From NCBI GenBank assembly GCA_021296345.1, contig JAGWAN010000022.1, forward strand, positions 50,805 through 85,040: a stretch of DNA of 34,236 nt, written 5' to 3'. The DNA is from Acidimicrobiia bacterium (lineage in GTDB: Bacteria > Actinomycetota > Acidimicrobiia > Spongiisociales > Spongiisociaceae). This document shows, one piece after another, positions 8,747 to 27,330 of the stretch. Each line of letters starts with the position of its first letter. Positions within the stretch are counted from its first letter, which is position 1. Below the pieces are notes generated by a model, which saw only the letters and a program-made list of their open reading frames with translations, was not told the DNA's origin and ran no database searches. Position numbers and translations under genes: made by a program.

Positions 8747-8847
8747 GGAGGGTGCTGAGAAACGGTGATAGTGGTTGGCCAGTTGCGTGCTGACGTGGCA
8801 TTCTGCCGTCGGCGGCTGAGCCAACAGGGCGTTTCTCGGCACCCTCC
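8747..8847. mobile_element. MITE-like hairpin element, copy A
   Basis: A 101-bp element bounded by inverted repeats: GGAGGGTGCTGAGAAACG (8747-8764) and its near-complement at 8830-8847, 17 of 18 positions matching. An inner inverted repeat GTTGGC (8774-8779) / GCCAAC (8820-8825) extends the fold. No open frame lies inside. It sits in the 184-bp gap between binding protein and first permease. A second element with the same termini is at 27215-27312. No clear target-site duplication is visible. It may be a non-autonomous transposon, or a structured RNA that lowers expression of downstream permeases relative to the binding protein. Confidence 0.6.
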
Positions 8848-8896
8848 CGGGCATCGACGGAGCCCGAGCAGGTAACCGACGACAGGAGGTCGGCAC

Positions 8897-9997
8897 GTGG
8901 CCTTGTCGACAGGGCCTGAACTCGACAGGGACGGTTCGACCGGCCCGCCGCAGGGTGCAGACGAACCGGCGTCCGCTACCCGTGTCGACGTGTTCATGTA
9001 CGTCGCCAGGAAGCTGGGCTCCCTAGTCCTAGTGTCGGTGCTCGTCGCGACGCTCACCTTCGTGGTGAGCCGGGCTACCGCGGACCCTTCCTTCCTGATG
9101 GTGGGCCAGGACGCGACGGACGAGATCATCGCCGCCCGGCGCGCCGAGATGGGTCTCGACCAACCGATGTATCGCCAGTGGGCCTCGTACATGGCGGATC
9201 TGGTCAGAGGCGATCTTGGCATTTCGAGGCGGACCTTTGCGCCGGTCGGTGGGGAGATCTTTGAGCGGCTTCCCGCGACGGTTGAGTTGGCAGGCGCGGC
9301 GTTGTTACTGTCTCTGCTGGTGGCGATTCCGGGGGGAATCCGGGCCGGATTGCGACCCGATGGCTGGATCGATCGTCTTGTCGGGTCGATCGCGCAGCTC
9401 GGCGCAGCGATACCGAATTTCTGGCTGGGCCTGATGCTCATCTACTTCGGCTTCTACTGGCTCGGCTGGTTTCCCGCGCCCACTGGGCGGGGGCTGTTTG
9501 CGTTGGAATCCGAGTCGGTGACCGGCATCGTCACCATCGATGCCATACTCGCGCGTGACTGGTCGGCTGCGCGTGATTCGGTCGGGTATCTTCTGCTACC
9601 TGCGGTCACTCTGGCTTCGGGCGTGATGCCCCCGATCCTCAACGTGACTCGCAACGCCGCGGTGAGTGTCGTGAACTCGGCCTACTACGAGGCTGCGTTG
9701 TCTTTCGGGGTGCCGAGACGGGTCGTGCAGAGGAGGCTGCTGCTCCCGAACATCTCGGCCCCGGTCATAAACATCCTGGCTATCACGATCGGATTCTTGA
9801 TGGGCGGGGCCGTGCTCGTAGAGGTCGTGTTCTCCTGGCCCGGACTCGGGTCGTATGCGGTGGCCGCCATGGACAGTTCCGACTACAACCCGGTGCTCGG
9901 CGTGGTGCTCCTCGCCTCGGTTACCTACGTGCTCGTCTACCAGATCGCTGACCTTGTCACGTTTGCCATGGACCCGCGCCTTCGGATATCGCGGTGA
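8897..9997 (+). CDS. ABC transporter permease, DppB/OppB family
   Basis: 366 residues from GTG 8897, supported by AGGAGGT (8884-8890) 6 nt upstream; an ATG at 8998 is the next option and would remove a hydrophilic N-terminal tail of about 34 residues. The body has six hydrophobic segments. The family's N-terminal membrane span precedes a DPSFLMVGQDAT region. The EAA-type cytoplasmic loop appears as YYEAALSFGVPRRVVQRRLLLPN, and the end FSWPGLGSYAVAAMDSSDYNPVLG is typical of DppB. It pairs with the next permease to form the channel. Confidence 0.93.
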   Translation: MALSTGPELDRDGSTGPPQGADEPASATRVDVFMYVARKLGSLVLVSVLVATLTFVVSRATADPSFLMVGQDATDEIIAARRAEMGLDQPMYRQWASYMADLVRGDLGISRRTFAPVGGEIFERLPATVELAGAALLLSLLVAIPGGIRAGLRPDGWIDRLVGSIAQLGAAIPNFWLGLMLIYFGFYWLGWFPAPTGRGLFALESESVTGIVTIDAILARDWSAARDSVGYLLLPAVTLASGVMPPILNVTRNAAVSVVNSAYYEAALSFGVPRRVVQRRLLLPNISAPVINILAITIGFLMGGAVLVEVVFSWPGLGSYAVAAMDSSDYNPVLGVVLLASVTYVLVYQIADLVTFAMDPRLRISR

Positions 9998-10021
9998 CGG
10001 GAACCACGGGGACAGCAGCCC

Positions 10022-10936
10022 ATGCTCCGGTTGGAGCAGTTGGTGGTGCTCTATGCAGGGTTGACCGGGCAAATGACGGCTAACCGGGCGGATACGCATC
10101 CGCGTCGTACCAGGCTGGCGAGGGCCGCGGTTTGGATAAGGAGGCTGCCTCTACTGCCCACCATTATGCTGGCCATCACCTTCCTGGTGATCCTGATCGG
10201 CCCGGCGATCGTCCCGCACGATCCGCTCCAGCCTAATCCCGCCAACGTCCTCGAGGCCCCCTCACGTGGCCACTGGTTCGGGACGAACGGCTTCGGCATG
10301 GATGTCTTTTCCCGCGTGATCGCGGCAGCCCGCATCGACGTCGGCGTCGCGGTCGCCGGGGTTACCGTAGGGGCGGTCGTTGGCTCGATCCTGGGCGCCA
10401 CCGTCGCATACACCGGTGGGTGGGTCGATGCGATCGTCCAGAAGGCCATAGAAGTACTCCAGTCGTTCCCGCTCTTCCTATTCGCCTTGGCCTTGTTCGC
10501 CGCGCTCGGCGACAACACTTTCAATCTCGTTGTGGTCATCTCATCAATAAGCCTCCCCTGGTACGTACGCGTCGTACGAAGCGTCATTTCCCCGCTTCGA
10601 GAAGCGGATTGGGTTAAGGCATTGCAGAACGCCGGTGCGAGCGGCCCCCGCATCGTTGTCCTGGAACTCCTTCCCAACGCCACCAGCCAGGTGCTTGGCC
10701 TCTTCGCCCTCAGCACTGCTCTGGCGATCCAGGTCATCGCTGCTCTCGCGTTTATCGGTCTGGGTGTCCAGCCGCCCTTCCCCGAGTGGGGATCCATGAT
10801 CAACACCGGAGCACCCTTCCTGCTCCAAGGTGCATGGTGGGTATCCACCTTCCCGGGCGTCGCCGTCGTGCTTGTCGTGATCAGCCTCCACAGTCTCTCG
10901 CGATTCTTCGACGCTGAGACTCGTGGGATCGGGTAG
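10022..10936 (+). CDS. ABC transporter permease, DppC/OppC family
   Basis: 304 residues from ATG 10022; ATG 10073 is a plausible alternative, since family homology only begins around the first membrane span (LPTIMLAITFLVILIGPAIV) and neither start has a strong ribosome site. The conserved ...PHDPLQPNPANVLEAPS...HWFGTNGFGMDVFSRVI segment is diagnostic of DppC proteins. The EAA loop is WVKALQNAGASGPRIVVLELLPN. About six membrane spans. It begins 24 nt after its partner permease and is followed closely by the first ATPase, so B-C-D-F order is standard. Confidence 0.92.
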   Translation: MLRLEQLVVLYAGLTGQMTANRADTHPRRTRLARAAVWIRRLPLLPTIMLAITFLVILIGPAIVPHDPLQPNPANVLEAPSRGHWFGTNGFGMDVFSRVIAAARIDVGVAVAGVTVGAVVGSILGATVAYTGGWVDAIVQKAIEVLQSFPLFLFALALFAALGDNTFNLVVVISSISLPWYVRVVRSVISPLREADWVKALQNAGASGPRIVVLELLPNATSQVLGLFALSTALAIQVIAALAFIGLGVQPPFPEWGSMINTGAPFLLQGAWWVSTFPGVAVVLVVISLHSLSRFFDAETRGIG

Positions 10937-10949
10937 AGGGAGGGCTGCT

Positions 10950-11966
10950 ATGCCACTCCCGAGCCATCTGGAGGGAGCCAGGATGGGCGAGGTCGTCCTC
11001 CTGTCCGGCGCCGGGATCCGGATCGATCGGAAGGCCCTACCTCCTCTGTACCCGGTCCAGAACGTGGATCTGTCCGTCCGGATCGGCGATCGAACGGCAC
11101 TGGTAGGTGAGTCCGGCTGCGGGAAAAGCCTTACCGCAAGGCTGCTTACCGGGCTGCTCCCTCCCAACGCGGTGCTGGATCGAGGATCGGCCACCCTGCT
11201 CGGCGAATTCGACCTCGGTGAGGAATTCCCGGATGAGGTGCGCGGCAGCCGCGTCGCCATGATTTTCCAGGATCCCGTTTCCGTTCTGGACCCTATGGCC
11301 GGAATCGGAGTACAGATCGGACGGGCGCTGGCCGCAGCCGGTGTCGCTAAGGCCGAGCGGAGGGGAGCCGCGGTCGATCTGCTCGGCTCCTTGCATATCC
11401 CGGACCCGGAAGAGGTTGCCCGGAAGTACCCGCATCAGTTGAGCGGCGGAATGTGCCAGCGTGTCGCCATCGCGATGGCGCTGGCGCCGAAGCCGGATCT
11501 GCTGATAGCCGACGAGCCGACGACATCGCTGGACGTCACCACCGAGGTCCAGGTTCTCGACCTGCTCGAGGAGTACCTCGACAGCTCCGGCGCGAGCCTC
11601 ATCCTTATCTCTCATGACCTGAATGTCGTGGATCGTCTGGCCGAGAGCGTGACCGTGATGTACGCGGGTCAGTCAGTGGAGCATGGACCGATCGCCGATA
11701 TCCTCAGCGAGCCCGCCCACCCCTACTCGCGGGATCTCGTGCGTAGCAGCGTGCTAAACCGGGGCGAGGCCGCCCATTCGATCGCAGGAACACTTCCCTC
11801 GATCGAGAATGTCACGCGGACGTGTCCCTATCGTGTGCGCTGCAGCGAGGCCCGCTCGGCATGCTCGGATACTTCGCTAGGTCAGGTGCCCTCCTCGGAC
11901 GGTTTCGTCCGGTGCCTGTTCCCGTTGAAGAAGATGCCCGGCGCGGCTGGCGGGGAACCGGTGTGA
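10950..11966 (+). CDS. ABC transporter ATP-binding protein, DppD/OppD family
   Basis: 338 residues from ATG 10950, which has GAGGGAGGG at 10936-10944. ATG 10983 has an equally good GGAGGGAG (10970-10977) and would start closer to the usual family N-terminus; GTG 10923 would overlap the permease. Walker A is GESGCGKS, the Q-loop sits in MIFQDP, the signature is LSGGM (LSGGQ in most families; Met is seen in DppD-type subunits), Walker B is LLIADEPT and the switch is SHDL. The C-terminal oligopeptide-transporter extension is recognisable by TCPYRVRC. It powers import with the next ATPase. Confidence 0.92.
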
Positions 11967-12988
11967 CCCATCACGAGTCCCCGACCGGGTCGTACGACGA
12001 CGCTACGGGCATAGACGCGGAAGTTGAATCGGGACGGCCCGTCCTGAGTGTCCGGGAGCTGTCCAAGACCTACACAACGAAGCGACTCATCGGGTCGGGC
12101 AAGGGGTACCAAGCCCTATCGAATGTCTCGCTCGACCTCAGAGCCGGGGAGATACTCGGTGTGGTGGGCGAGAGCGGATGCGGTAAGTCCACACTGGGCA
12201 AGGTGATCGCAGGTGTCGAGACAACCGGCATCGGAGGCGCCGAAGTGGGCGGCCAACCGTTGGATCTCGCGCAGGGCACGCGAACGCGTGACCAACGGCG
12301 CCAAGTGCAATTCGTGTACCAGAGCCCGCGAGGCTCCTTCAACCCGGCGCGGCGCGTCTCCGCCGCGCTGCGCTACAACGCCCGGCTTGCCAGAGAGGTC
12401 ACGGGAGAGCCGGTGGACGACGCTCTGGAGAGAGCGGTTAAGTCAGTGGGTCTCGGTGCGCAACACCTGGACCGCTACCCGAACGAATTGAGCGGTGGTC
12501 AGCTTCAACGGCTCTCCATCGGAAGGGCTCTCATCACGCGACCGGACATCGTCTTTCTCGACGAGCCCACCTCATCGCTCGACGTGTCCGTCCGGGGGGA
12601 GATTCTCAACTTGCTCACGGGTCTTCGCGAGTCGATGGGGCTATCGATGATTCTCGTGAGCCATGACCTCGATGTCATCTCGTATGTCGCCGATCGCATC
12701 CTGGTGATCTACGTCGGCCAGATCGTCGAGGAAGGGAGTGCCTCCGATATCGTCGCTCGGCCCGCCCATCCCTACACGCGGGCGCTTCTCACGGCGAGCA
12801 GCTTGCCGGATCCCGCTGAGCCACTCGAGCTTGCGGTCGACGTCCGGGATGCGTCTTTCCTTCCGACCGGCTGCCGTCTCGCTCCCCGTTGCCCACTCGC
12901 CGAAGCGCGGTGCTCGGAACCCCAGCATCTCGTTGCCTCCCATGGGAGATCCGTGCGGTGCTGGAAGGCTGAGTCGACGCTTCGGTAG
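11963..12988 (+). CDS. ABC transporter ATP-binding protein, DppF/OppF family
   Basis: 341 residues from GTG 11963, which overlaps the previous stop as GTGA; the open frame reaches back to 11822 but that would overlap the partner ATPase by 145 nt. Motifs: Walker [10 protein letters not shown]-loop FVYQSP, signature LSGGQ, Walker B IVFLDEPT, switch SHDL. The C-terminal cysteine-containing extension (CRLAPRCPLAEARC) is standard for the oligopeptide group. A hydrophilic tail of about 30 residues precedes the ATPase fold. It is last in the importer operon and converges on the SDR gene with 19 nt between stops; no convincing terminator is visible there. Confidence 0.93.
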   Translation: MTHHESPTGSYDDATGIDAEVESGRPVLSVRELSKTYTTKRLIGSGKGYQALSNVSLDLRAGEILGVVGESGCGKSTLGKVIAGVETTGIGGAEVGGQPLDLAQGTRTRDQRRQVQFVYQSPRGSFNPARRVSAALRYNARLAREVTGEPVDDALERAVKSVGLGAQHLDRYPNELSGGQLQRLSIGRALITRPDIVFLDEPTSSLDVSVRGEILNLLTGLRESMGLSMILVSHDLDVISYVADRILVIYVGQIVEEGSASDIVARPAHPYTRALLTASSLPDPAEPLELAVDVRDASFLPTGCRLAPRCPLAEARCSEPQHLVASHGRSVRCWKAESTLR

Positions 12989-13007
12989 GAGGCTGGGAGG
13001 AAACGCC

Positions 13008-13787
13008 TCAGAACAACCGGCCGCCGGAGACCCTGAGCTCCGCTCCCGACACGTAGCTCGCTTCCGGTGACAGGAGCCAGGTTACCGCGGCAGCTACCTC
13101 GTCGAGGTGCGGGAACCTTCCTAGAGGGGTGCGGCGGAGCAGGCTCGCCCGGACTTCGTCGGCGGCCCGCGCGGTGAGCGGTGTCGAGACGAAGGACGGG
13201 AGGATGGCGTTGACTCGCAGTCCGACCGGTCCTAGTTCGTTTGCTGCCACTCGGGTGGCGGCGACCAAGCCCGCTTTTGACGATGCGTATGCAGACTGTC
13301 CGGCGTTGGCGCCGTATGCCGACAGGCTGCAGACGTTGACGATCGCGCCGGTATCACCAGCTCGGCGCCGGCTCTGGTCTGCGACCCAATGCCTTGCGAA
13401 CAGACTCATAGCGGCTATCGCAGCTATCAGGTTCACCTCGATCGTCCTGCGTAGGTGATCAAACGACATTTGGAGAAGCCGATCGTCCGCCGACACACCA
13501 GCACAGTTGACGAGGGCGGTCGGCGTGCTTGCCAGCCGGGTTACCTCATCGAAGGCCGACTCGAGATCGCGTGTCGACGTGATGTCCACGCCCAGCAACA
13601 ACCCCGGAAATGTACGGTCATTTCGAGAATCGATCACGTCGGGAAGATCTAGACCGGCAACCGTCCAACCGGTAGCCTGCAACCCTTGGCAGATTGCTCC
13701 GCCCATGCCGCCGAGTGCGCCCGTGACTATGGCGACCCCAGCACTCGCCGGCTGGGGCGATGCTCCGTCGCCACTCGGGACCGTCAC
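13008..13787 (-). CDS. Short-chain dehydrogenase/reductase (SDR), first copy
   Basis: 259 residues from GTG 13787, which starts 2 nt after the amidohydrolase-like stop; the frame extends upstream to 14069 only as a shadow of that gene. Cofactor motif TGALGGMG at residues 22-29, the NNAG position reads NCAG, and the active site is Ser followed by YASSK. The C-terminus (SYVSGAELRVSGGRLF) is typical of classical SDRs. It would catalyse NAD(P)-dependent oxidation or reduction of an alcohol or ketone. Its tight coupling to the amidohydrolase-like gene suggests they act on the same compound. Confidence 0.9.
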   Translation of the reverse strand: MTVPSGDGASPQPASAGVAIVTGALGGMGGAICQGLQATGWTVAGLDLPDVIDSRNDRTFPGLLLGVDITSTRDLESAFDEVTRLASTPTALVNCAGVSADDRLLQMSFDHLRRTIEVNLIAAIAAMSLFARHWVADQSRRRAGDTGAIVNVCSLSAYGANAGQSAYASSKAGLVAATRVAANELGPVGLRVNAILPSFVSTPLTARAADEVRASLLRRTPLGRFPHLDEVAAAVTWLLSPEASYVSGAELRVSGGRLF

Positions 13788-13789
13788 TT

Positions 13790-14620
13790 CTACGCGAACC
13801 CGCCCGCGTATTCGATCAGACGCCGGGCGTTGCCTGACAGGATCTTCCGAAGCGAGTCCTCGGGCCATCCGAGACCGACATAGTTCTTCCAAGCATCGAG
13901 AGGCTGGAACGGGAAGGCGCTGGCGTAGACCACCTTGTCGGAGATCAGGGTTCCAGCTGCATCCCGGAACACATGCGCACCGGGATGGAAAGCGTAGATG
14001 GAGGCTTCGAGATAGATGTTGTCGTTCCGGTAGGCCGTAGCCACCAACTCCTCCGAGCGAGGCCAGCATCCATGCGCGATGACCAGGCGCAGGTCCGGAA
14101 AGGTGCGGGCTATCCGTTCGAACGGTCCCGGATCCCCGTAGAACTGTCCCACGAAGGGTCCGACCGTGAGGATGGCGACCAGCTTGTTAGCGGCAGCGAA
14201 CTCATAGATCGGGAACATTATCGTGTCGTCGTCCCAGCCGAGCGGCTGGGCAGCTATGGGATCCCCCGGAGGATCGAGCGCGATGCCGATGTTTCGGCTG
14301 TCGGCGGCCGCGGCGGCAAGTTCCACCTCCCGCTCCGTGGAGTGCGGGTCGATACCGTAGGCGGTGAACAGAAGACCTCCGGTCCTGGCAGCCGTTTCTC
14401 GTACGTAATGACTGCTGAGGTTTGCCCAGCTGCTGTTGCGTCCCGTGAACACGCCGACCTCGATGCTCTGCTGGCGAGCCTCGTTCGCGAAGTACTCCAG
14501 AGGCACGGGTGCAGGCTCCGGAATCCCGAACCGGCGCCACAGCAGTGCGTAACCCGATCCGGTATACAGATTCATGTACTCGGTAGTGTTGGGTCGGACA
14601 CGGAAGTCGATGACCTTCAT
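13790..14620 (-). CDS. Amidohydrolase-like TIM-barrel protein lacking the HxH motif
   Basis: 276 residues, resembling amidohydrolase-2 (PF04909) proteins such as the ACMSD/resorcylate decarboxylase group. The usual metal-binding DxHxH at the first strand is replaced by VIDFRVRP at residues 3-10, and the usual GSDxP near the C-terminus by ASAFPF. His remains in LVIAHGCWP, and the closing ILSGNARRLI is typical. An AGGAG ribosome site stands 6 nt before ATG 14620. With two or more metal ligands gone it may be a metal-independent lyase or hydrolase, or a non-catalytic protein. The decayed paralog at 15580-16229 has the same DFRVRP start, so the change belongs to the subfamily and is not random damage. 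Confidence 0.75.
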   Translation of the reverse strand: MKVIDFRVRPNTTEYMNLYTGSGYALLWRRFGIPEPAPVPLEYFANEARQQSIEVGVFTGRNSSWANLSSHYVRETAARTGGLLFTAYGIDPHSTEREVELAAAAADSRNIGIALDPPGDPIAAQPLGWDDDTIMFPIYEFAAANKLVAILTVGPFVGQFYGDPGPFERIARTFPDLRLVIAHGCWPRSEELVATAYRNDNIYLEASIYAFHPGAHVFRDAAGTLISDKVVYASAFPFQPLDAWKNYVGLGWPEDSLRKILSGNARRLIEYAGGFA

Positions 14621-14676
14621 GCTGTGCTCCTATCGTCGATTGGTGGCTTCGACAGATCCATCCTCTACCGATCGGC

Positions 14677-15429
14677 TCATCCTACGTTCGCGCCGCCGTC
14701 AACCATGAGAGATGCCCCCGTCATGTAGCTTGACGCGCCGTCGAGCAGGAACAACACCGTCGAGGCGACATCTTGTGGCACCCCGACCCTATTCAGCGGT
14801 ACCGATTCGGCCATTCGCTCGGTCCACTGCTCTACCGAAAGCCCATCAGCCTCGAACCCGGTTCTTGACATCGGCGTCAGGATCGGGCCGGGAAGTACGC
14901 AGTTGACGCGAATGCCGCGGTCCGCCAACTCAACTGCGGCCGATCTTGTCAGTCCTTCGATTCCCCCTTTTGCTGCACTATACGCAGACATGCCGGCCAT
15001 GCCTTTGCGAGACAGCACAGAACCTACGAGGACGATCGAGCCGCCGCCTTCGGCCATGGCAGTGGCACAGGCTTCTAGCAGCCAGTAGGAACCCAACAGG
15101 TTGACGCTGACTATTGCCTTGACCCGGTCCCACTGCGAGATGCCGATCGATTGCCTCGCAGCAGCTCCGCCGATCCCGGCGCATGCGGCGAGACCGTCTA
15201 TCCTCGCAACCTGGCTCCTGACTTGCGCGATCGCCCCATGAACGGCGACGGGGTCCGCTATGTCGCAGTGAGCGAAGAGCACGTGGTCGCTGGCAAGCAG
15301 GTCTTCGGGAGGCATCCGGAGGTCGAGGAGCGCGGCAGACCGGCCGCGATCCTGCAATCCCTCCACCACGGCTTTCCCGATACCTGATGAACCCCCGCTG
15401 ACGATGGTGGTGCCGGGTGTCGCCGTCAT
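14677..15429 (-). CDS. Short-chain dehydrogenase/reductase (SDR), second copy
   Basis: 250 residues. Cofactor motif SGGSSGIG near residues 11-18, followed by an acidic LLDLR end of the second strand that usually favours NAD. Active site Ser in LVGSVLSRKG and YSAAK; C-terminus MTGASLMVDGG is classical. GGAGAGAG lies directly before ATG 15429. It is only distantly related to the SDR at 13008, so the cluster has two different dehydrogenases around one amidohydrolase-like gene. Gap to the next gene downstream is 56 nt, consistent with one minus-strand transcript. Confidence 0.92.
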   Translation of the reverse strand: MTATPGTTIVSGGSSGIGKAVVEGLQDRGRSAALLDLRMPPEDLLASDHVLFAHCDIADPVAVHGAIAQVRSQVARIDGLAACAGIGGAAARQSIGISQWDRVKAIVSVNLLGSYWLLEACATAMAEGGGSIVLVGSVLSRKGMAGMSAYSAAKGGIEGLTRSAAVELADRGIRVNCVLPGPILTPMSRTGFEADGLSVEQWTERMAESVPLNRVGVPQDVASTVLFLLDGASSYMTGASLMVDGGANVG

Positions 15430-15579
15430 CTCTCTCCGCTCGCCCAGAGGCTCGAACCAGGGTCAAGCGACAAACACAAACCTGCGGCCTGCGCAGGCGG
15501 GAACTGCTGCCTTGTGGTGGTGAATGCCTCCCCGTCGAACCGCATCTGTGCGACCCAGGTCTTGCCCGCCATCCGCAGT

Positions 15580-16229
15580 TCAGATTCCCAGAAGGCGTTG
15601 CACGTTCCCGCCCAGACAGCGTTGCCTGAGATCTTCGTCCTCGAACGGAAGCGCCGCAAACTGTTCGACGCTCAGTCCGAGAGGACGGATCGGGGAGCTG
15701 CTAGCGAACAGCAACCGGTGACCTAGGTAGTAGTTGGCCGCCCTAATGTACTCCTCAGCCCCCGGGCTGTTGGGAAGACCGTGCTCTGCAACCCGCTCGC
15801 ACACCGGAAAGAGGGATTCGTCGTCATACAGGGCAGGGACACACCATCCGTTGTCTTTCGCGACACCCTTGAACCCGAGTTCGACACACTGGTCAACCTG
15901 GCTCACGGCGTCCTCCGATGCGCCATCCACCGAACCGAACCCGACGAATCGCCCGGGTACGTCTCGACCAACTCAGCGACATCGGAGTTGAGTACCGATC
16001 CCCACGGTGCGGGTGAATTACGGCCCATGGCGACGGCTACGTCGATCCCGGATTCGTTCATCTCTTCAACGAATCGCTCGATGGACCGGTCGTCGAGGAT
16101 CGGAAGGGCGGAACGTCGAGCCACACGCCGGGGGCGGCTACCGGGTCCGGGGTTCGGATCGCGAGCCCCGTAGATGTTCAGTTTGCAGAAGCTCTTGAAC
16201 GGAGGTCTGACACGAAAGTCGATGATCAT
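15580..16229 (-). pseudogene. Decayed amidohydrolase-like gene (frameshift plus internal deletion)
   Basis: It starts MIIDFRVRPPFKSF from ATG at 16229 and is paralogous to the gene at 13790-14620. The first frame runs through VAELVETYPG, then a one-base loss near 15951-15956 shifts it; the alternative frame continues RFVGFGSVDG and on to GNVQRLLGI. A second lesion near 15771 joins CERVAEHGLP directly to NSPGAEEY, removing roughly 63 residues present in the intact paralog, including its LVIAHGCWP segment. Two independent lesions make expression of a working protein very unlikely. The clean reading frame in each segment suggests recent inactivation. Confidence 0.85.
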
Positions 16230-16240
16230 ACGGTATGATC
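16224..16240. promoter_or_regulatory. 17-bp palindrome over the pseudogene start, candidate operator
   Basis: GATCATAC (16224-16231) and GTATGATC (16233-16240) are perfect reverse complements around one central base. The palindrome covers the start codon of the decayed amidohydrolase-like gene at the head of the minus-strand cluster, and faces the divergent ferredoxin operon about 500 bp away. The form resembles sites bound by GntR-type dimers. No regulator gene is in the window. Confidence 0.45.
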
Positions 16241-19368: not shown

Positions 19369-19668
19369 TCGTTAGCGTCGGATCATGACTACAGCGCGAG
19401 GTGCCCGTTCGGGAATCTGTTCCTGTTTCCTCCGGGAAGCAACGGTGGCTGGGAAGACCTGGTCCGGTGCGAATCCTATCGCCGTTATGACCCGAGCGTC
19501 CCGGACACGGGCATGGAAGTCTCCTACGCGCTCTATGAGGAAGGAGGCCTGAGCGGAGTGGGCGGGACTATGTGGACCGACGGCGTCTACCTAGCGGTGA
19601 CGGGTCCTCCAGAAGTCTGGGATCACCCCGCCCATGTGCCCTGCGGGCTCGAGTTCGACGACGACTGA
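19369..19668 (+). pseudogene. Remnant reading frame, unknown protein
   Basis: An open frame of about 100 codons ends at TGA 19666-19668 and starts after an in-frame TGA at 19366. Its composition looks coding (many GC-ending codons, mixed residues such as NLFLFPPGSNGGWEDLV and HVPCGLEFDDD at the end), but there is no start codon before ATG 19513, which would give only 51 residues. A different frame starting at ATG 19385 runs about 57 codons, so a frameshift could explain the loss of the beginning. I recognise no family. It fills the 509-bp gap between reductase and Gfo/Idh gene; nothing else is seen there. Confidence 0.4.
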
Positions 19669-19813
19669 CCGGACCTGCAGAACCCGCTTCGCCGTCATTC
19701 TTATTTGTCAGCGGGCCTCGCGAGGAACACTGCTGCCGTCGGCATTCCACTAGTACAGTCACCGCTGGTTCATCCATTCCCTTGGGAGGGCGATTTGGCG
19801 CGAGCAGGTAACC

Positions 19814-20929
19814 ATGAGCGACGCTAACAAGGTGCGGATCGGTGTGGTCGGCGCCAGTCCACCTGGCTTCGGGGACCGTGCCCACCTGCCGGCCATCCAG
19901 TCCGCCGAGGGTCTGACGCTGGAAGCGGTCTGCACCACCCGTGAATCCACCGCCCGGGCCGCGGCCGAGAAATGGGGCGCCCGCAAGTGGTACTCGAATG
20001 TTGAGGAACTGTGCGCCGACCCCGATGTCGATCTGGTCACGGTGGCGGTCCGTCCCCGGCTCCATTATCCGCTCACGATGGCGGCTCTCCGGGCGGGTAA
20101 GCCGGTGTACTGCGAGTGGCCGCTCGCTCTCAACACCGGTGAAGCCCGCAAGATGGCAGAGCTGGCCGGACAGACCGGGCTTCCCACCGCAGTCGGCCTG
20201 CAAGGACGCTCCGCCCCCGCCGTTGCCTGGGCTCGCCGGCTGGTTGCGGAAGGAGCGGTCGGCAAACCCCTCTCCTTCGTGGTCTCCCAGATGCTCTCCA
20301 AGTTCGAGGTCGACTCCGACCGCTCCTGGCTGGTGCGCCACGAGGAAGCCAGCGGCGCACTCTTCGTGGCCTTCGCACATGTGGTGGACTCGGTCCGGCT
20401 GATCCTGGGCGATGTGGAGTCCATATGCGCCCGCCAACTCACCCTCTCACCGGACGGGTCCTACTCCGAGGGCGGAACGTTTGAGTGGAAGACGGCCGAC
20501 ACGGTGATGGCCCTGGCCGAGCTGTCCGGTGGCGTCGTCGGTACCGCCTACGTGTCCAACACCACCTCCCCGCCCCAGGGATACTCGCTTAGGATCATCG
20601 GCGAGGACGGCCAGATGCTCCTGGAAGCCCCTTCCTACTACCAGTTCAGTCCCGTCAGGGTGTCGGCCGGACCGCTTCAGGTCTCGGTCGGCCGGAGGGA
20701 CTCGGACCGTCTCGAGGCGGTCGAGATCCCCGCCGAACATTTCTCGCAGCTAGCCGTTACGGAGGGGCACTCCGGCTACAACGTGGCCCGAGCCCTCACC
20801 GCATTCGCTGGGGCGATCCGGGATGGCGGCCGCTTCCGGCCCGACTTCCGGGACGGGGTGGATCTCCACCGCCTGCTGGACGCGGTCATGACCTCCGAAG
20901 AGGAGGGCGGCTGGGTCAGCTGCTTTTAG
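19814..20929 (+). CDS. Gfo/Idh/MocA-family oxidoreductase with EWP in place of EKP
   Basis: 371 residues. The N-terminal Rossmann domain begins RIGVVGASPPGFGDRAHLPAI, a variant of the GxGxxG loop. The position that is EKP in active Gfo/Idh dehydrogenases is Glu101-Trp102-Pro103 (CEWPL), so the catalytic Lys is absent. A EWP form is also found in the non-catalytic Gal80 group. The C-terminal domain looks complete. It may bind dinucleotide and a sugar-like ligand without redox chemistry, or use another residue. ATG 19814 has only a weak GCAGGT site upstream. It precedes the hydrolase-M24-dehydrogenase operon by 192 nt. Confidence 0.85.
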   Translation: MSDANKVRIGVVGASPPGFGDRAHLPAIQSAEGLTLEAVCTTRESTARAAAEKWGARKWYSNVEELCADPDVDLVTVAVRPRLHYPLTMAALRAGKPVYCEWPLALNTGEARKMAELAGQTGLPTAVGLQGRSAPAVAWARRLVAEGAVGKPLSFVVSQMLSKFEVDSDRSWLVRHEEASGALFVAFAHVVDSVRLILGDVESICARQLTLSPDGSYSEGGTFEWKTADTVMALAELSGGVVGTAYVSNTTSPPQGYSLRIIGEDGQMLLEAPSYYQFSPVRVSAGPLQVSVGRRDSDRLEAVEIPAEHFSQLAVTEGHSGYNVARALTAFAGAIRDGGRFRPDFRDGVDLHRLLDAVMTSEEEGGWVSCF

Positions 20930-20949
20930 CGGCCCGTCAGGCCTGCGAA

Positions 20950-21008
20950 CCTTAGGTTGAGGGCGCGGTGGGGCGCGTTGTGAGCCTTAGGTTGAGGGCG
21001 CGGTGGGG
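20950..21008. repeat. 24-bp direct repeat, two copies, 35-bp period
   Basis: Positions 20950-20973 and 20985-21008 are identical over 24 bp, beginning CCTTAGGTTGAG and ending GCGGTGGGG, with an 11-nt spacer. They lie between the Gfo/Idh stop and the isochorismatase-like gene. They could be a local duplication or a tandem binding site; each begins with the palindrome CCTTAGG minus one base. No coding frame explains them. Confidence 0.85.
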
Positions 21009-21121
21009 GAGGGAGTGTTCCGAAGCAATATACTGAGCAGCGTGCGCCTGCCGGGTGTGTCCTTCGCCCGGACGGGACCGCGTTCCCAGCGTCCACGCCC
21101 GCTAAGGAGAGGCCCGAGCCT

Positions 21122-21850
21122 ATGGACTTGCATGATCCCTTCTACGACCTGTTTCCCCGCAGGTCCTTCCCTTCGATCGAGCCCGGGAGGACCGCCCTCC
21201 TCACTATCGATCTCCAGTACCTGGACGCCCATGAGGACGGCTGGATCGGCCGCATCGCCCAAGCGGCCGGGAAGCCGGAGGTCATGCGGGAGCGCTGGGA
21301 CAACATCAACGGGATCCTCCCCAACGTCCGGCGCTGCCAGGACGCCTTCCGGGAGGCCGGCGAGGAAGTGATCCATGTCCGGGTGGCCTATCGCACCGCC
21401 GATGGAAGGGATGCCGGCAAGGCCTTCATGCCCACCGCCGACCTCGAGCCCGTACCCCGCGTACCCATGGACGACGAACTCCTGCCGGAGGTCAAGGCGA
21501 TGGGTGACGAGATGATTTTCTCCAAGACTTCATCGAGCGTTTTCAACACGAGCAACATCAATGACGTCCTGAAGCGCATGGGCATCACCAATCTGGTGTT
21601 CACGGGAATCGTGACCGAGGGTTGCGTGGAGCTGTCCGCCCGGGACGCCGCCGACAGTGGCTACACGGTGTCGCTGGTCAGCGACGCCTGCACCTCATCC
21701 ACCAGGGAGCTGCACGAGAACGCCCTGGACCGGATGACGGATGGCGGCTTCATCGCCGCGCGGACCACCGACGAGATCATCGCGGAGATCTCCGACCCAC
21801 AACCATCCGCCCCCTACCGGCCGGCGTCGATACCGACCCCCAACAGCTAA
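21122..21850 (+). CDS. Isochorismatase-fold cysteine hydrolase
   Basis: 242 residues. The catalytic triad of the family is visible: Asp30 in LLTIDLQ, Lys135 in FSKTSSSVF and Cys168 in GIVTEGCVE, with the preceding Val-Thr forming the usual cis-peptide region. Such enzymes hydrolyse amide, imide or carbamoyl bonds (nicotinamidase, N-carbamoylsarcosine amidase, biuret hydrolase) or vinyl ethers; substrate cannot be assigned. AAGGAG lies 11 nt before ATG 21122. The next gene begins 12 nt after its stop, so the two are co-transcribed. Confidence 0.92.
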   Translation: MDLHDPFYDLFPRRSFPSIEPGRTALLTIDLQYLDAHEDGWIGRIAQAAGKPEVMRERWDNINGILPNVRRCQDAFREAGEEVIHVRVAYRTADGRDAGKAFMPTADLEPVPRVPMDDELLPEVKAMGDEMIFSKTSSSVFNTSNINDVLKRMGITNLVFTGIVTEGCVELSARDAADSGYTVSLVSDACTSSTRELHENALDRMTDGGFIAARTTDEIIAEISDPQPSAPYRPASIPTPNS

Positions 21851-21862
21851 GGAGCCGACCGA

Positions 21863-23029
21863 ATGGCAGAAGGCACACTCACCCACATCTCCTCTCCCGA
21901 GGAGCGGGAACGACGTCATCAGGTACTGCGCGAGGCCATGGCCGGTGCGGGGATCGACGCCATGATCATCTGCAGCCGGGGCGATGAGTTCGTAAGGGGC
22001 CGGGTCCAGTACGTGAGCGACATCTTCCAGTGGGCCGGTTGGGGGATGGTCGTCCTCCCGCAGAAGGGCGAGCCCACCTTCATAGGAGACCCGCTGTGGG
22101 GCCTCTCGCGGGTGGCGCTGGTCAACTGGATCCAGGACTTCCGGGCCACCCAGACACCGGGGGTGGAGATAGCCGGCATACTCTCCGACCACGGCATCTC
22201 CAACGGGACCATCGGGATCGTTGGGCTGGCGGATATCACCTCCGCCGCCCACTACATGGCCTTCCAGGAGGCGTTCGGGAAGACAGCCACGCTGGTTGAC
22301 GCCACCGACATCTTCGACGACATCAAAGCCATCAAGAGCGATGAGGAGATCGAGAACCTGCGCGAGACCTCTCGGATCATCCGGCTGGTGTTCCGGAGCC
22401 TCGAGGGTCACATCCGTCCGGGAGCGATCGAGCGGGACATCCTGGCCGAGGCTCACCGCCTGGTCCGCCAGCACGGATGTCTCGACGGGATCGCCCAGAT
22501 GAGCCGCCAGCCCTACCGCGCCTACACCTTCGGGATGGACGCGGAAATCGAACGGGACGATGTTCTCTGCATCGATCTGGAATGGGGAGGCCCCTCCGGT
22601 TACTGGGTCGAGGTGCGCCGCACCTACACCTTCGGGCGTCCTTCCGATCAGATCCTCCGCTACTGGGATACACGTATCGAGACCCTCGACGCCTGCGTAG
22701 ACGCCATGAAGACCGGCGCATCCTCCGACGAGGTGTTGGCGGCCCGTGACCGAGTCCATCGCAAGTACGGGCAGGGCGGCTTCGACTCGGTCGCCTACAC
22801 CGCCCACGGGATCGGGCTGGACTCCCACGAGGTTCCATGGGTGCCCGGCAAGGAGCGGGTGATGGAGACCAACATGGTCATCAACCTGCACCCCCAGATC
22901 ACCTTCGACGATCCGGCGGAGGCCCTCGCCGTAGGTGGGATATGCGTGTCCGACAACGTGCGGGTCACTCCGGACGGCGGCGAGCGCCTCACCTACGACC
23001 GCGACATCCTGGTCGACCTGGATGCATAG
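21863..23029 (+). CDS. M24/creatinase-fold protein with most metal ligands replaced
   Basis: 388 residues with an N-terminal creatinase-type domain and a C-terminal pita-bread fold. Of the five metal ligands of methionine aminopeptidase-type enzymes, only Asp238 (CIDLEW) and His315 (AHGIGL) remain; the second Asp is Glu250 (WVEVRRTY), and the two Glu are His343 (INLHPQ) and Ser363 (VSDNV). The substrate-loop His322 is kept. Creatinase and ectoine hydrolase are known members that do not need two metals, so this is probably a C-N hydrolase for a small molecule, not a peptidase. A GGAG site lies 9 nt before ATG 21863. Its 3' end overlaps the dehydrogenase start. Confidence 0.85.
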   Translation: MAEGTLTHISSPEERERRHQVLREAMAGAGIDAMIICSRGDEFVRGRVQYVSDIFQWAGWGMVVLPQKGEPTFIGDPLWGLSRVALVNWIQDFRATQTPGVEIAGILSDHGISNGTIGIVGLADITSAAHYMAFQEAFGKTATLVDATDIFDDIKAIKSDEEIENLRETSRIIRLVFRSLEGHIRPGAIERDILAEAHRLVRQHGCLDGIAQMSRQPYRAYTFGMDAEIERDDVLCIDLEWGGPSGYWVEVRRTYTFGRPSDQILRYWDTRIETLDACVDAMKTGASSDEVLAARDRVHRKYGQGGFDSVAYTAHGIGLDSHEVPWVPGKERVMETNMVINLHPQITFDDPAEALAVGGICVSDNVRVTPDGGERLTYDRDILVDLDA

Positions 23030-24113
23030 CCGGGCCGCCCTGGTGGTCGAGCCGGGGCGGGTAGAGGTCACCGGGATCACCTTCGGTCCTCCCAGGGAGG
23101 GGGAGGTGATCCTGAGGATGGAGGCAGCCGGGGTGTGCCGGACCGATTACAAGGTCTCCAAGGGCCTGCAGTCGAGTCGGAAACCCCTCTACCCGATGCT
23201 CTTGGGTCACGAAGGCGCCGGAGTGGTCGAGCAGGTCGGCCCGGGTGTGAGCCGTCTCTCGGAGGGTGACCGTGTCGCGGTCGGATGCCGGGTGCCCTGC
23301 GGATCGTGTTCGATGTGCCGACGGAACGATCCCCGGCGCTGCAACTCCTCGGGTGCGCGCCCGCCCTCTGTCTCGCTGGCCTCCGATGGAGCCGGAGTGG
23401 ACGTACCGATGGGCCTGGGCGTGTACGCCGAACGGATTCCGGTGGACGCCGGGGCCGTATTCAGGGTCAGCGATGCGATGCCGATGACTTCCGCCTCGCT
23501 GCTGGGTTGCGCGGTCATGACCGGTACCGGTGCTGTGTTCCACACCGCCCGGGTCTGGCCCGGCGCTACCACCGCCGTCATCGGGTGCGGCGGGATCGGC
23601 CTCTCGACCGTGCAGGGCGCCAGCCTGGCAAACGCCTCAAAGGTGATCGCGGTGGACATATCCGACCGCAAGCTGGAGTGGGCCCTGTCCATGGGAGCGA
23701 CCCATGCGGTCAATTCGGCCCGCGAGGATGCAGTGGCGGAGGTCCGCGCCCTGACCGGCGGTGATGGGGTCGACTTCTCCTTTGAGGCCGTGGGACTGGG
23801 CGCCACGCTGGAGCAGGCGCTCGGGATGCTGTCATACGGGGGCGTCGTCACCATGATCGGCGTGCCCCCTCCCGGATCCCGGGCCGAATTCGATCCCTCG
23901 GCCTTCTTCCGCAACACCTCGACCCTGATAAGCACCCACGGCGGGGAGGGCATACCAGCCCAGGACTTCCCCGTTCTGGACTCGCTCTACCGATCCGGCC
24001 GGCTGAACCTCGACGACATGGTCACCCACACCATCCCGCTCTCGGAGATGGAGAGGGGCTTCGAGAACCTGGAGACCGGCTCGGCCCTCCGCACGGTGGT
24101 GGTTCCCGACTGA
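23022..24113 (+). CDS. Zinc-containing alcohol dehydrogenase (MDR family)
   Basis: 363 residues from ATG 23022, which overlaps the M24 gene by 8 nt; the open frame reaches 22935 but that part is a shadow. Catalytic zinc ligands Cys39 (GVCRTDY) and His63-Glu64 (GHEGAG); structural zinc site Cys93, Cys96, Cys99, Cys107. The Rossmann motif GCGGIGLSTVQG is followed by VDIS, favouring NAD. It resembles class III-like aryl/formaldehyde-type alcohol dehydrogenases. As the last gene of the operon it would oxidise an alcohol released or passed on by the two hydrolase-like proteins upstream (inference). Confidence 0.93.
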   Translation: MHSRAALVVEPGRVEVTGITFGPPREGEVILRMEAAGVCRTDYKVSKGLQSSRKPLYPMLLGHEGAGVVEQVGPGVSRLSEGDRVAVGCRVPCGSCSMCRRNDPRRCNSSGARPPSVSLASDGAGVDVPMGLGVYAERIPVDAGAVFRVSDAMPMTSASLLGCAVMTGTGAVFHTARVWPGATTAVIGCGGIGLSTVQGASLANASKVIAVDISDRKLEWALSMGATHAVNSAREDAVAEVRALTGGDGVDFSFEAVGLGATLEQALGMLSYGGVVTMIGVPPPGSRAEFDPSAFFRNTSTLISTHGGEGIPAQDFPVLDSLYRSGRLNLDDMVTHTIPLSEMERGFENLETGSALRTVVVPD

Positions 24114-24360
24114 CACCGCCGAGCCGCTCGCTTCAACGGTTGCCGCTGTTTCACACACAGACCACCGGCTGCGCGGGGCTGTTCGTCCCGACGGCTGTAG
24201 TTCTGGGCGGGGGAGCAGGGGGGGTTGAAACCCTCCCGCGGACAAGGCATGTTGGGAGTGAGGTCCGACGGGCAAGGATCGATTGACAAGATTCTCGTCA
24301 TCGGCAGAACGCCACCGGATGGGGACCAGTGGTATCCTCGATAGCGGATGAAGGAGAGGC

Positions 24361-24609
24361 ATGACCGCGCCGACTTTCGACACCCAGGCCAGCGTTACCA
24401 AGCTTCGCTCAGCGGGAATCGACGAGCCCGCCGCCAATAGCATCGTAGAGGTTGTCTCCGACGCGACGAGCCCACTCGTAACACGCGACATGCTCACGAC
24501 GGAACTATCCGGGCTGCGGGCTGACATGTACCGCGCACTGTGGATACAGGGCGCCGGTATCGTCGCGGTCGTCGGCGGCATCGTAGGCATCGCCGAAGTC
24601 ATCGGCTGA
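24361..24609 (+). CDS. Small coiled-coil/membrane-anchored protein, DUF1640-like
   Basis: 82 residues. The first 60 residues are polar with helical pattern (FDTQASVTKLRSAGIDEPAA, then LVTRDMLTTELSGLRADMYR); the rest is one membrane span, ALWIQGAGIVAVVGGIVGIA. This arrangement matches bacterial DUF1640/CCDC90-like small proteins, whose role is not known. AGGAGAGG stands just before ATG 24361. It follows a 247-bp gap in which I see no gene; TATCCT at 24332 may be its -10. A YibE/F gene begins 38 nt downstream. Confidence 0.8.
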   Translation: MTAPTFDTQASVTKLRSAGIDEPAANSIVEVVSDATSPLVTRDMLTTELSGLRADMYRALWIQGAGIVAVVGGIVGIAEVIG

Positions 24610-24647
24610 AGTCCGGGTTACTGGGGCGTCCTAAGCTTCGGAACCGG

Positions 24648-25913
24648 ATGGAGAAACCTCTCGGACAACCCGCGGACGGAGCGGATGCCCTTCGTCCTGG
24701 CGGCGGCTGGAAGGCGTGGAGGTCTTACCCCGGCTTGCGGTGGGTGCTTGCCATCGTGGTCGGCGCGGCGGTCGCGACAGGGTTCGGGGTGGCGACGCTG
24801 TGGCCCACCCAGGAGGGTGTAGAGGCCGCGACAGCCAGCGCCGACGAGATCGGACTCGTGACGGACCGGTTCGGCGCCACCGTGGAGGAAATCCGTGACG
24901 GTCCCTGCAGCTATTCGAGCGCCGATAATCCCAATGCCTGCCGCCAGGTCACGGTCGTTCTGGACGAGGGTCCGGCCCGGGGCTCGCTGGTACCTCTACC
25001 GGAACTGGACCTCGCTTTCACGGCGACTACGCCTTCCCTGAGGGTCGGCCAGAAAGTTATCATCGGCTACGAGCCGTCCACCGACTTCTACTTCTACGCC
25101 GACAACGACCGCCGGACCCCGCTCGCGTGGCTGGGTGCGTTGTTCGCCGTGTTCGTGATCGCGCTGGGGCGGCGTCGTGGTGTACTGGCCCTGGTGGGCA
25201 TGGCCGGCACGCTGGTGGTGCTCCTCGCCTTCATGGCGCCGTCCATTCTCGATGGCAACGATCCGTTGCTGGTCTCGGTGGTAGCGGCTTCGGGGATCGC
25301 GTTTGTCAGCCTGTATCTCGTCCATGGCTTCAGCCCGATCACCACCGTGGCTCTGGCCGGAACGCTCGTGTCGCTCGGGTTGACGCTGGGCCTGTCCTGG
25401 GCGTTCTTCGAATTGGCCGCTTTCACCGGTCTGGCCAGCGAGGAGGGCTTGGTCCTGCCCCTCATCGCCGGTGGCCTGGACGTCTCCTCCCTGATCCTGG
25501 GCGGCGCGGTCATCGGCGCCCTCGGCGCGCTGGACGACATCACGGTTACCCAAGCTGCTCTGGTGGCGGAGCTCCGCTATCGGAGTCCGGGCCTGGGTGT
25601 CTACGAGTTGGTCTCGTCCGGAATCCGGGTGGGCCGGGAACACATCGCCTCGACGGTCAACACCCTCCTACTGGCCTATGCCGGCGCCGCGATCCCCCTG
25701 CTGATGCTGTTCGTCGTCTCCGATCTGTCCCTGGTGATGGTGGCGAACTCCGAGCTGGTGGCGGTGGTGATAGTCCGCACATTGTGCGGATCGATCGGGC
25801 TGGTGGCGGCCGTGCCGATCACTACCATCCTGGCCGCCCTGGTGTCATCCGGCACGGGCTGGCCGGAAGGAGCTCCCGCTCCGATCGCCCCTGACAGTCC
25901 GCACTCCGAATAA
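24648..25913 (+). CDS. YibE/F family multi-pass membrane protein
   Basis: 421 residues from ATG 24648; the frame extends to 24540 within the preceding gene. One N-terminal membrane span (residues about 29-45) is followed by a ~100-residue extracytoplasmic domain, then about eight membrane spans. The conserved core GALGALDDITVTQAA and the later VGREHIASTVNTLLLAYAGA are signatures of YibE/F. Members are poorly characterised; one has been linked to copper or stress in some bacteria, but I cannot assign a substrate. Two cysteines lie in the external domain (GPCSY and ACRQV), possibly forming a disulfide. Confidence 0.9.
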   Translation: MEKPLGQPADGADALRPGGGWKAWRSYPGLRWVLAIVVGAAVATGFGVATLWPTQEGVEAATASADEIGLVTDRFGATVEEIRDGPCSYSSADNPNACRQVTVVLDEGPARGSLVPLPELDLAFTATTPSLRVGQKVIIGYEPSTDFYFYADNDRRTPLAWLGALFAVFVIALGRRRGVLALVGMAGTLVVLLAFMAPSILDGNDPLLVSVVAASGIAFVSLYLVHGFSPITTVALAGTLVSLGLTLGLSWAFFELAAFTGLASEEGLVLPLIAGGLDVSSLILGGAVIGALGALDDITVTQAALVAELRYRSPGLGVYELVSSGIRVGREHIASTVNTLLLAYAGAAIPLLMLFVVSDLSLVMVANSELVAVVIVRTLCGSIGLVAAVPITTILAALVSSGTGWPEGAPAPIAPDSPHSE

Positions 25914-25994
25914 GCAGGACACGCCGAACCTTTTGGAACCCGCTCTACGGGTAGGATTCCTGGCGATCACCAACCTTGATGGAAGGGCTCCGCC

Positions 25995-27143
25995 GTGGTA
26001 GTACCCATGTCCGATCTGGCCGCCGAGTACGGGTCGCTCAAGACCGAGATCCACGATGCGATCGACCGGGTGCTGGCCAGCGGCCTCTACGTCCTGGGTG
26101 AGGAACTCGATGCCTTCGAGGATTCCTTCGCCGCCTACGTGGGCGCCCGTCACGCCATCGGCGTGGGTTCCGGTACGGCTTCGCTCCACCTTGCCCTGGC
26201 GGCTCTCGACCTCGAGCCCGGCGATGAGGTGATCACCGTTCCCAACACCGACACGCCCACCGCGGCGGCGGTGACCCACGCGGGTGCGAGGGTGGTCCTG
26301 TCGGACACGGACGGTCATACCTTCACCATGGATCCCGCCCGGTTGGTGGAGGCGATCACGCCGCGGACCCGGGTGATCCTCCCGGTCCACCTGTTCGGCC
26401 ATCCCGCCGACCTGGACCCGATCCGCGCGGTTGCCGACCGGCACGGGATCGTGGTGTTGGAGGACTCGGCCCTGGCCGTGGGCGCCGAGTACAAGGGCCG
26501 CAAGACCGGAACCTTCGGGCCCCTTGGGTGTTTCAGCCTGGCGCCTGGGAAGATCCTGGGCGGGTACGGCGACGGGGGGATCGTGGTCACCGACGACCCT
26601 GACCTGGCGCACCGCGTCAGAGTGCTCCGCAACTACGGTCACGCACCCGGACAGAAGCTCTCGGGCAAGGATCTGACTGGGGGCCACGGCTGGACGGTAC
26701 TGGAACAGGGTTACAACCAGCGTCTCGACACCCTCCAGGCGGCGCTTCTGGCCGCCAAGCTCCCGACGCTCGAAGACCGGATCGCGGGTCGCCGGCGTGC
26801 TGCCGCCCTCTACAGGGAGGCGTTCGTCGGGACGCCGGTGACGGCTGTCCACGAGGCGCCTTGGGCGCGCCATGTCTACTTCGCCTACAACGTGCTGGTG
26901 CCCGCCCGCCTCCGCGACCGGGCTCGCGCCCATCTCGCTGCCAACGGTATCGCCACCCGGCTGTACTACAACCCCCCGCTCCATCTCCATCCCGCCTACG
27001 AGTGGATGGGTCTCGGGGCAGGTTCGTTACCGGTGGCCGAGCTCACTGCCTCCCAGATGATCGGCCTGCCCTGCTTCCCCCAGATCACCGACTCCCAGGT
27101 CGAGCAAGCCGCATCGACCCTTCTGGACTTCTTCGCCGGGTAG
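25995..27143 (+). CDS. DegT/DnrJ/EryC1/StrS aminotransferase (PLP-dependent)
   Basis: 382 residues from GTG 25995, supported by GGAAGGG about 8 nt upstream; ATG 26007 is the alternative. The start VVVPMSDLAAEYGSL is standard for the family. The PLP-binding Lys is Lys186 in SLAPGKILGGYGDGG, and the cofactor Asp lies in VLEDSALAVGAEYKG. The usual EDAAQ reads EDSAL, a mild change at a position next to the cofactor. The family makes amino sugars for polysaccharides, glycans or secondary metabolites. No other sugar-nucleotide gene is nearby, so the pathway is unknown. A TAGGAT box at 25952 may be its -10. Confidence 0.93.
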   Translation: MVVPMSDLAAEYGSLKTEIHDAIDRVLASGLYVLGEELDAFEDSFAAYVGARHAIGVGSGTASLHLALAALDLEPGDEVITVPNTDTPTAAAVTHAGARVVLSDTDGHTFTMDPARLVEAITPRTRVILPVHLFGHPADLDPIRAVADRHGIVVLEDSALAVGAEYKGRKTGTFGPLGCFSLAPGKILGGYGDGGIVVTDDPDLAHRVRVLRNYGHAPGQKLSGKDLTGGHGWTVLEQGYNQRLDTLQAALLAAKLPTLEDRIAGRRRAAALYREAFVGTPVTAVHEAPWARHVYFAYNVLVPARLRDRARAHLAANGIATRLYYNPPLHLHPAYEWMGLGAGSLPVAELTASQMIGLPCFPQITDSQVEQAASTLLDFFAG

Positions 27144-27214
27144 TGGTAGCCACTTCTCGGACGAACCGGATCGGACAGGGGTTGAATTGTCACCATCCCG
27201 CGATACGTTGCTTA

Positions 27215-27312
27215 GGAGGGTACTGAAAAACGTCGAGTTGGCCCGTTACTAGCAATGAAACCCCGGGCCATGGCACCGCGGGCCAACCAATCCCGTCTCT
27301 TCAGCACCCTCC
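27215..27312. mobile_element. MITE-like hairpin element, copy B
   Basis: A 98-bp element with termini GGAGGGTACTGAAAAACG (27215-27232) and the near-complement at 27294-27312 (the complement of the right arm begins GGAGGGTGCTGAA, as in copy A). A perfect inner repeat GTTGGCCCG (27237-27245) / CGGGCCAAC (27279-27287) extends the fold. The inner arms share the TTGGC/GCCAA core with copy A while the loops differ completely. It is flanked by TA on both sides, which may be a short target duplication or part of the repeat. No open frame lies inside. Confidence 0.6.
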
Positions 27313-27330
27313 TATAGCGACGCACCAAAT

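Follow-up and report, generated by a model that had tools for sequence, protein, structure and literature searches.

Two intergenic hairpins of an Acidimicrobiia genome as probable copies of one miniature inverted-repeat transposable element family

Two hairpins and their repeat family

We analysed a window of 34,236 nucleotides (positions 50,805 to 85,040 of contig JAGWAN010000022.1, assembly GCA_021296345.1, Acidimicrobiia bacterium) with two hairpin elements. Copy 1 lies between genes for a binding protein and a permease of an ATP-binding cassette (ABC) transporter, and copy 2 interrupts a second dispersed repeat that we call E2. An earlier sequence-only reading had pointed out both hairpins, and its description was correct with respect to their positions and lengths (8747-8847, 101 bp; 27215-27312, 98 bp), their location in gaps between predicted genes, and the inverted ends and inner TTGGC/GCCAA pair that are present in both. 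We conclude with a probability of about 0.8 that the two hairpins are copies of one miniature inverted-repeat transposable element (MITE) family of ca. 101 bp, designated family A. The features of the window are listed in Table 1.

The copies have opposite orientations. Read on the minus strand, copy 2 starts with GGAGGGTGCTGA, like copy 1, and its plus strand starts with GGAGGGTACTGA. In the draft genome from which the window was taken (2,826,246 bases in 82 contigs, 95% complete) these 12-mers occurred 27 and 21 times, respectively, and reversed-pattern controls gave no occurrence, which puts them far above chance. The genome search proposed in the sequence-only reading yielded many further copies. 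Inspection of the 27 GGAGGGTGCTGA sites by eye revealed three without an element behind the 12-mer (L001, L002, L022), one truncated copy with the left part only (L024), and two that are the two ends of one copy (L008 and L009).

Searching the draft genome by BLAST with a 101-base consensus gave at least 43 matches (40 of 81 candidates scored), and a covariance model constructed from 17 copies, with 150 of 1405 candidates scored, gave at least 95 at E≤1, in which some places count twice because both strands matched. Because only part of the candidates was scored, the family copy counts are lower bounds. From 83 extracted places we left out three copies of a second type (type B) and six apparently weak or partial matches, which gave an alignment of 74; at least that many copies of the ca. 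101 bp element are dispersed over the 2.83 Mb draft. Over 101 core positions, their identity to the consensus was 63-93% with a median of 82%. The inverted ends are 16 bp long with the sequence GGAGGGT(G/A)CTGAAAAA; with 74 copies and such ends, family A has the make-up of a MITE, a short multi-copy element with terminal inverted repeats. The type B elements (C19:7399, C50:1365, C56:3206) are about 110 bp long and have the ends of family A around a different interior.

According to a crude gene finder (predicted coding density 84%), 50 of 77 copies are located between predicted genes, 19 overlap the end of a predicted gene and 8 fall within one. At G000 C65:4490-4694 and C20:10570-10767 paired family A copies point the same way and are separated by 1 to 5 bp; the partner at C20:10672 is one of the weak matches.

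The loops of the two hairpins had been described as completely different. This proved incorrect: read in the same direction, copies 1 and 2 align end to end to one consensus, with identities of 63% (the lowest of the 74 copies) and 84%, respectively. The full-length alignment of copy 1 to the family indicates that the loops are related. Copy 1 could alternatively be an unrelated intercistronic hairpin with ends that resemble those of family A by chance, and several observations weigh on that side. Its interior alone scored weakly against the family profile (11.6 bits, E 0.96; 7 of 2000 shuffles aligned as well), it is not flanked by the TA dinucleotides found at many copies, and the short hairpins at the orthologous position in three same-genus genomes miss the profile (6.3 bits, E 42 for G008; no reported hit for G005 and G002). 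The link of these hairpins to the MITE consequently rests on orthology with copy 1. However, copy 1 matched a profile that was built without it over the full length with 40.4 bits (E 1e-9), it has the right length, and the inner TTGGC/GCCAA pair is correctly placed, which makes a chance resemblance improbable.

Table 1. Features of the window, with positions counted from its first base
Feature	Position	Strand	Basis
MITE family A, copy 1 (old, diverged)	8747..8847	+	repeat searches, family alignment, profile score, orthologues
Left hairpin arm, copy 1 (18 bp)	8747..8764	+	sequence, fold
Right hairpin arm, copy 1 (18 bp)	8830..8847	+	sequence, fold
MITE family A, copy 2 (typical)	27215..27312	-	repeat searches, family alignment
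TA target duplication left of copy 2	27213..27214	.	sequence, empty sites
TA target duplication right of copy 2	27313..27314	.	sequence, empty sites
E2 core interrupted by copy 2	27306..27472	+	model R2 match; first bases overlap MITE end
ABC transporter binding-protein gene (SBP_bac_5), upstream of copy 1	6967..8712	+	gene prediction, domain match
ABC transporter permease gene (BPD_transp_1), downstream of copy 1	8897..9997	+	gene prediction, domain match

Target sites, pairing and candidate transposases

Flanking sequences were counted for those 69 of the 83 extracted copies of 90 bp or more that have G as the first and C as the last base. A TA dinucleotide was present on the left of 41 copies, on the right of 45, on both sides of 32 and on neither side of 15. 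Among the 32 copies with TA on both sides, the right TA was followed by G in 26 and the left TA was preceded by C in 11, giving the arrangement CTA..TAG in 8 cases. Family A thus shows a preference for TA(G) targets. The search for empty sites that had been suggested for relatives was successful: copy 2 is absent from the orthologous gap in four genomes (G001, G005, G006 and G008). The site reads GTTGCCTATCGCC in G008 as compared to GTTGCTTA, the element and TATAGCG in the genome studied here; in G002, G003, G004, G007 and G009 the stretch was missing or outside the sequence compared.

A second locus, represented by L148 and L128, carries the same type of insertion. The two are orthologous to each other (flanks 96.5% and 90.9% alike) and their flanks do not match those in the window, yet in each a family A MITE occupies the TA of E2 that copy 2 uses, in the orientation seen in the window (L148 7356-7600; L128 6458-6702). 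Together with copy 2 these represent recurrent insertion at one E2 site. Comparing L148 and L128 with uninterrupted E2 paralogues fixed the duplication as TA, or TAG in the element orientation, and disfavours a general 4 bp CTAG duplication. Family A thus has both empty sites and a target-site duplication of TA (2 bp) or TAG (3 bp).

The sequence-only reading had offered a non-autonomous transposon and an RNA with a structure under selection as two explanations. For the family as a whole the first was borne out by the copies, inverted ends, TA(G) targets and empty sites, whereas the second was not. A regulatory or structural RNA, or an element resembling repetitive extragenic palindromic (REP) sequences, with a stem selected in every copy would agree with the inverted ends in all copies, with the stable fold of the family consensus (-51.4 kcal/mol, z -4.5) and with the pairing of the end repeats, for which 29 both-sided changes were counted as compared to 13.5 in shuffles (0 of 1000 as high). 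The latter excess is modest since slid controls reach 20 and 24, and it can be explained by sub-lineages and the need for matching ends. The inner stem of the 74 copies gave no excess, with 5 both-sided changes where shuffles gave 3.2 (210 of the 1000 were as high) and slid controls 6 to 12, and the compensatory stem changes across copies that would mark a whole-family regulatory RNA were not found. The 17-copy covariance model, also an earlier suggestion, did retrieve further family copies, but its alignment showed nothing clearly above shuffles. Furthermore, no Rfam match at the gathering score was found in the window, and the empty sites and TA duplication also argue against an RNA selected in every copy, which we consider very improbable.

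As to the enzyme that mobilises family A, the earlier suggestion to look for a transposase with matching ends was only partly successful. No transposase with exactly the family A ends was found in the genus, but similar ends were present in IS1182 elements (IS, insertion sequence) of the same order. Flanks were examined for 19 IS1182 loci within the family and order, with further partial IS1182 matches outside this count. Twelve of the 19 have inverted ends bordered by CTAG on either side, and eight start with TAGGAG, for example L312 CTAGGAGTCTGCTGATTAAT, L314 CTAGGAGACTGCTGAGCAA and L320 CTAGGAGGCTGCTGATTTA. The similarity to the family A ends does not amount to identity, at best ca. 14 of 18 positions by eye, in a comparison restricted to the ends. 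Because of these similar ends in the same order, an IS1182-type transposase is the best supported mobiliser; we think it probable, although it is not proven. In this mechanism, an IS1182-type DDE transposase would have recognised the family A ends and moved the copies in trans, with no such gene matched in the draft.

Several results weigh against this assignment. Transposase searches of the draft genome (95% complete) covered only IS1634, IS1182 and IS630, not IS5 or further families, and found none of the three. The lack of an exact partner in the genus mentioned above points in the same direction. Seven of the 19 IS1182 loci have no CTAG inverted ends (L255, L315, L317, L318, L319, L321 and L322). 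Where determined, IS1182 termini show CTAG, whereas the MITE targets are looser, with CTA..TAG at 8 of 32. In addition, an IS5-family gene occurs in the same-genus genome G005 (L216). Family A could alternatively be a MITE of another transposase group, such as the IS5 group, IS630 or an undescribed one. Duplication of TA or TAG would fit IS630 or some IS5 elements, and weak IS630 matches were present in G002 and G007. Against such an origin, two of three IS630 loci have inverted repeats unlike the MITE ends and at the third none were found, so that the MITE ends match none of these three, and L216 lacks the family ends in the stretch examined. Given also the similarity of the IS1182 ends to those of the MITE, a source other than IS1182 seems rather unlikely.

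Other transposase-like neighbours were inspected as well. The analysis revealed no transposase with the family A interior. A Flavobacterium IS1182 gene from outside the order (L204, 301 bits) has its frame 196 bp from an exact TAGGAGGGTACTGAAAAA; a second terminus was not found. L183 has a broken frame beside a terminus that by eye only appears to be a decayed IS1182 gene, and the frames near family termini in L181 and L183 gave no NCBIfam match. In L279 (G013) an IS5-family transposase remnant adjoins a MITE (1413-1513) that shares the ends but belongs to another sub-family. At L179 a transposase lies between two MITE ends, which made IS1634 a candidate partner. This was rejected since the IS1634 element possesses inverted ends of its own near 409-2369 and accordingly sits inside a MITE copy: L179 320-2425 is an IS1634 element inserted between the ends of a type-B-like MITE, with a run of N masking the exact reading. 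Searching viral contigs with the L179 transposase gave no relative. A composite candidate at L130, with 1.9 kb between MITE-like ends, was also dismissed because by eye its largest frame looks like a methyltransferase rather than a transposase.

The terminal inverted repeat pattern GGAGGGTRCTGAAAAA was found in 12 of 99 genomes. All 10 genomes of the genus have it (the one studied here included), as do 2 of the 5 further ones in the family and none of the 84 remaining ones in the order. Scanning the GTDB contigs for exact TAGGAGGGTRCTGAAAAA yielded 94 stretches, many of them from metagenome-assembled genomes (MAGs) of Acidimicrobiia. Scattered occurrences were found in Chloroflexi, Acidobacteria, Nitrospinae, Bryobacteraceae and others, and several of these contain short elements that resemble family A at their ends and differ from it inside. 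Judging from their isolate codes, many of the matching Acidimicrobiia MAGs are presumably sponge-derived. A literature search found no report that treats MITEs together with Acidimicrobiia and sponge.

The transporter junction and the repeat E2

Copy 1 starts 34 bp after the stop codon of the SBP_bac_5 gene and ends 49 bp before the predicted start of the BPD_transp_1 gene. The locus could be aligned in three of the nine other same-genus genomes (G008, G005 and G002). In each of these the arms are at the same place and enclose a short loop, giving a hairpin of 48 or 49 nt in total from which the interior is gone. The left arm is GGAGGGTGCTGAGAAACG in the genome studied here, GGAGGGTGCTGGGAAACG in G008 and G005, and GGAGGGTGCTGGGAAGCG in G002; the right arm is CGTTTCTCGGCACCCTCC in the former and in G008, CGTTTCCCGGCACCCCTCC with one inserted C in G005, and CGTTTCCCGGCACCCTCC in G002. 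One arm pair is A-U, G.U, G-C and G-C across the four species, and every substitution leaves a standard or wobble pair. Pairing was read from the sequences and single-sequence folds, since MAFFT put the left arm out of place when the four hairpins were aligned. The predicted folding energy was -62.5 kcal/mol for copy 1 (z -7.5) and -38 to -41.8 kcal/mol for the three relatives (z -7.5 to -11). A stem between the binding-protein and permease genes is therefore conserved in all four aligned loci of the ten genomes of the genus. Between the own locus and G008 the arms are identical at 35 of 36 positions, with 26 of 37 and 43 of 49 for the gap flanks and 260 of 301 for the upstream gene.

For copy 1 alone an RNA with a selected structure is a possible explanation, with arms and pairing kept in four species and the interior lost in three. 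Against it, the comparison covers three substituted positions in four species, of which the three relatives may represent a single lineage. We consider selection on copy 1, as judged from these sequences, possible at less than even odds. Copy 1 would be an old insertion between the two genes, with a hairpin that probably outlasted the death of the transposon. From its position and conservation the hairpin is most likely an intercistronic RNA structure that would shield the binding-protein mRNA at its 3' end or limit read-through. It does not have the form of an intrinsic terminator: position 8847 is followed by CGGGCATCGACGG without a T run, and the orthologues are alike in kind.

Copy 2 is a younger insertion and interrupts E2 just after a promoter-like box. 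E2 is a dispersed repeat (window 27165-27530; loci L343-L365). The segment 27311-27473 matches many places in the genus, with at least nine of the ten genomes among the matches listed; the tenth, G009, is probably covered by E2 loci L153 and L158. In the draft genome at least 23 E2 matches were found, that of the window included (40 of 72 candidates scored). By eye, the copies share a promoter-like stretch TGTCACACCCCCGCTATACG and a core that runs from AAGCACC to GGTGG, and several have a hairpin followed by T's. A generic scan for promoters and terminators gave none in the window's own interrupted copy. A diverged E2 copy is present at 31372-31560 (core 31402-31523, E 0.015 with model R2) and retains TGTCACACCCTCG, AAGCACC, GAGGGAACAT and GGTGG.

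An alignment of 22 E2 copies was evaluated with a four-helix structure. Paired cells amounted to 93.9%, against 91.4% in shuffles (0 of 500 as high), and there were 15 cells changed on both sides, against 4.5 (0 of 500 as high). Both-sided change affected five pairs, against 2.6 in shuffles (19 of 500 as high), and four of the five lie in helix 2. Additional pair types showed no excess (142 of 500 shuffles as high). Single folds of three copies gave z values of -3.8, -2.7 and -0.7. No Rfam match at E≤0.1 was obtained in 15 loci, and a relaxed Rfam search of 27200-27560 gave four matches, all with E 0.47 or worse. The E2 model found 7 copies in 88 of 94 named loci, each of them in a MAG of Acidimicrobiia or RHO1. 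It found none in 63 loci from other genera of the same family and order, a sample of 197 kb that is too small to tell. With the crude gene finder, the gene after E2 is on the opposite strand in 13 of 23 copies, on the same strand in 8 and unclear in 2, a distribution that favours an independent small RNA gene over a leader. With its promoter-like start and some covariation in its four helices, E2 looks like a structured RNA and is a candidate multi-copy small RNA.

Downstream of E2 a palindromic repeat, roughly GAGGCAGAGGGCGTCATATATGACGCCCTGAACCTCAGG, was noticed by eye at L344, L347, L349, L354, L358 and L359. The alpha/beta hydrolase gene that follows copy 2 (27506 onward) has several nearby stretches of 72-78% similarity in this and related genomes, which probably form a paralogue array.

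In combination, these observations suggest that a dead MITE may have been domesticated at the transporter junction, where its end repeats would survive as a hairpin selected for pairing, with other copies recurring after the promoter-like box of the structured-RNA-like repeat E2. We regard this combined scenario as tentative and would give it somewhat less than an even chance.

Comparison with known systems

For Methanosarcina acetivorans, IS1182-derived MITEs of 160 and 169 bp with 14 and 7 copies are described, with ISMac2 as the partner (PMC3852290). Since MITEs assigned to IS1182 have been listed before, the MITE family itself is ordinary. Family A resembles these elements as a set of short non-autonomous repeats with IS1182 as the probable source, but it differs by its length of ca. 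101 bp, its at least 74 copies, its occurrence in another phylum, the absence of a partner among the matches in the genome, and a target duplication of TA(G) instead of 4 and 0 bp (PMC3852290). The IS1182 elements of the same order (e.g. L310, L312, L313, L314 and L320) share with it TAGGAG-type inverted ends and CTAG flanks; unlike family A they carry a transposase, and their ends match those of the MITE approximately. IS1272, of the IS1182 family, is described as replacing stem-loops without target duplication (PMC5678879, PMC4923244). It belongs to the same transposase family as the proposed source of family A and hairpin DNA is central to it, as the target, whereas family A duplicates TA (PMC5678879, PMC4923244).

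The dozens of hairpin insertions in ten related genomes offer a way to gauge how often transposon ends become hairpins that stabilise or terminate mRNA, and copy 1 is a concrete, testable candidate for such recruitment. E2 may merit more attention than the MITE, being multi-copy, structured-RNA-like and unrecognised by the Rfam searches that were run.

For the transporter junction the closest parallel in function would be the E. coli malE-malF intergenic structure, which protects the mRNA of a binding protein (PMC5927463). The copy 1 hairpin differs in that it appears MITE-derived. Like the malE-malF structure, it is a stable predicted RNA structure between ABC transporter binding-protein and permease genes (PMC5927463), and by this analogy copy 1 may have been retained as an RNA hairpin between two transporter genes that works like the malE-malF stabilising structure.

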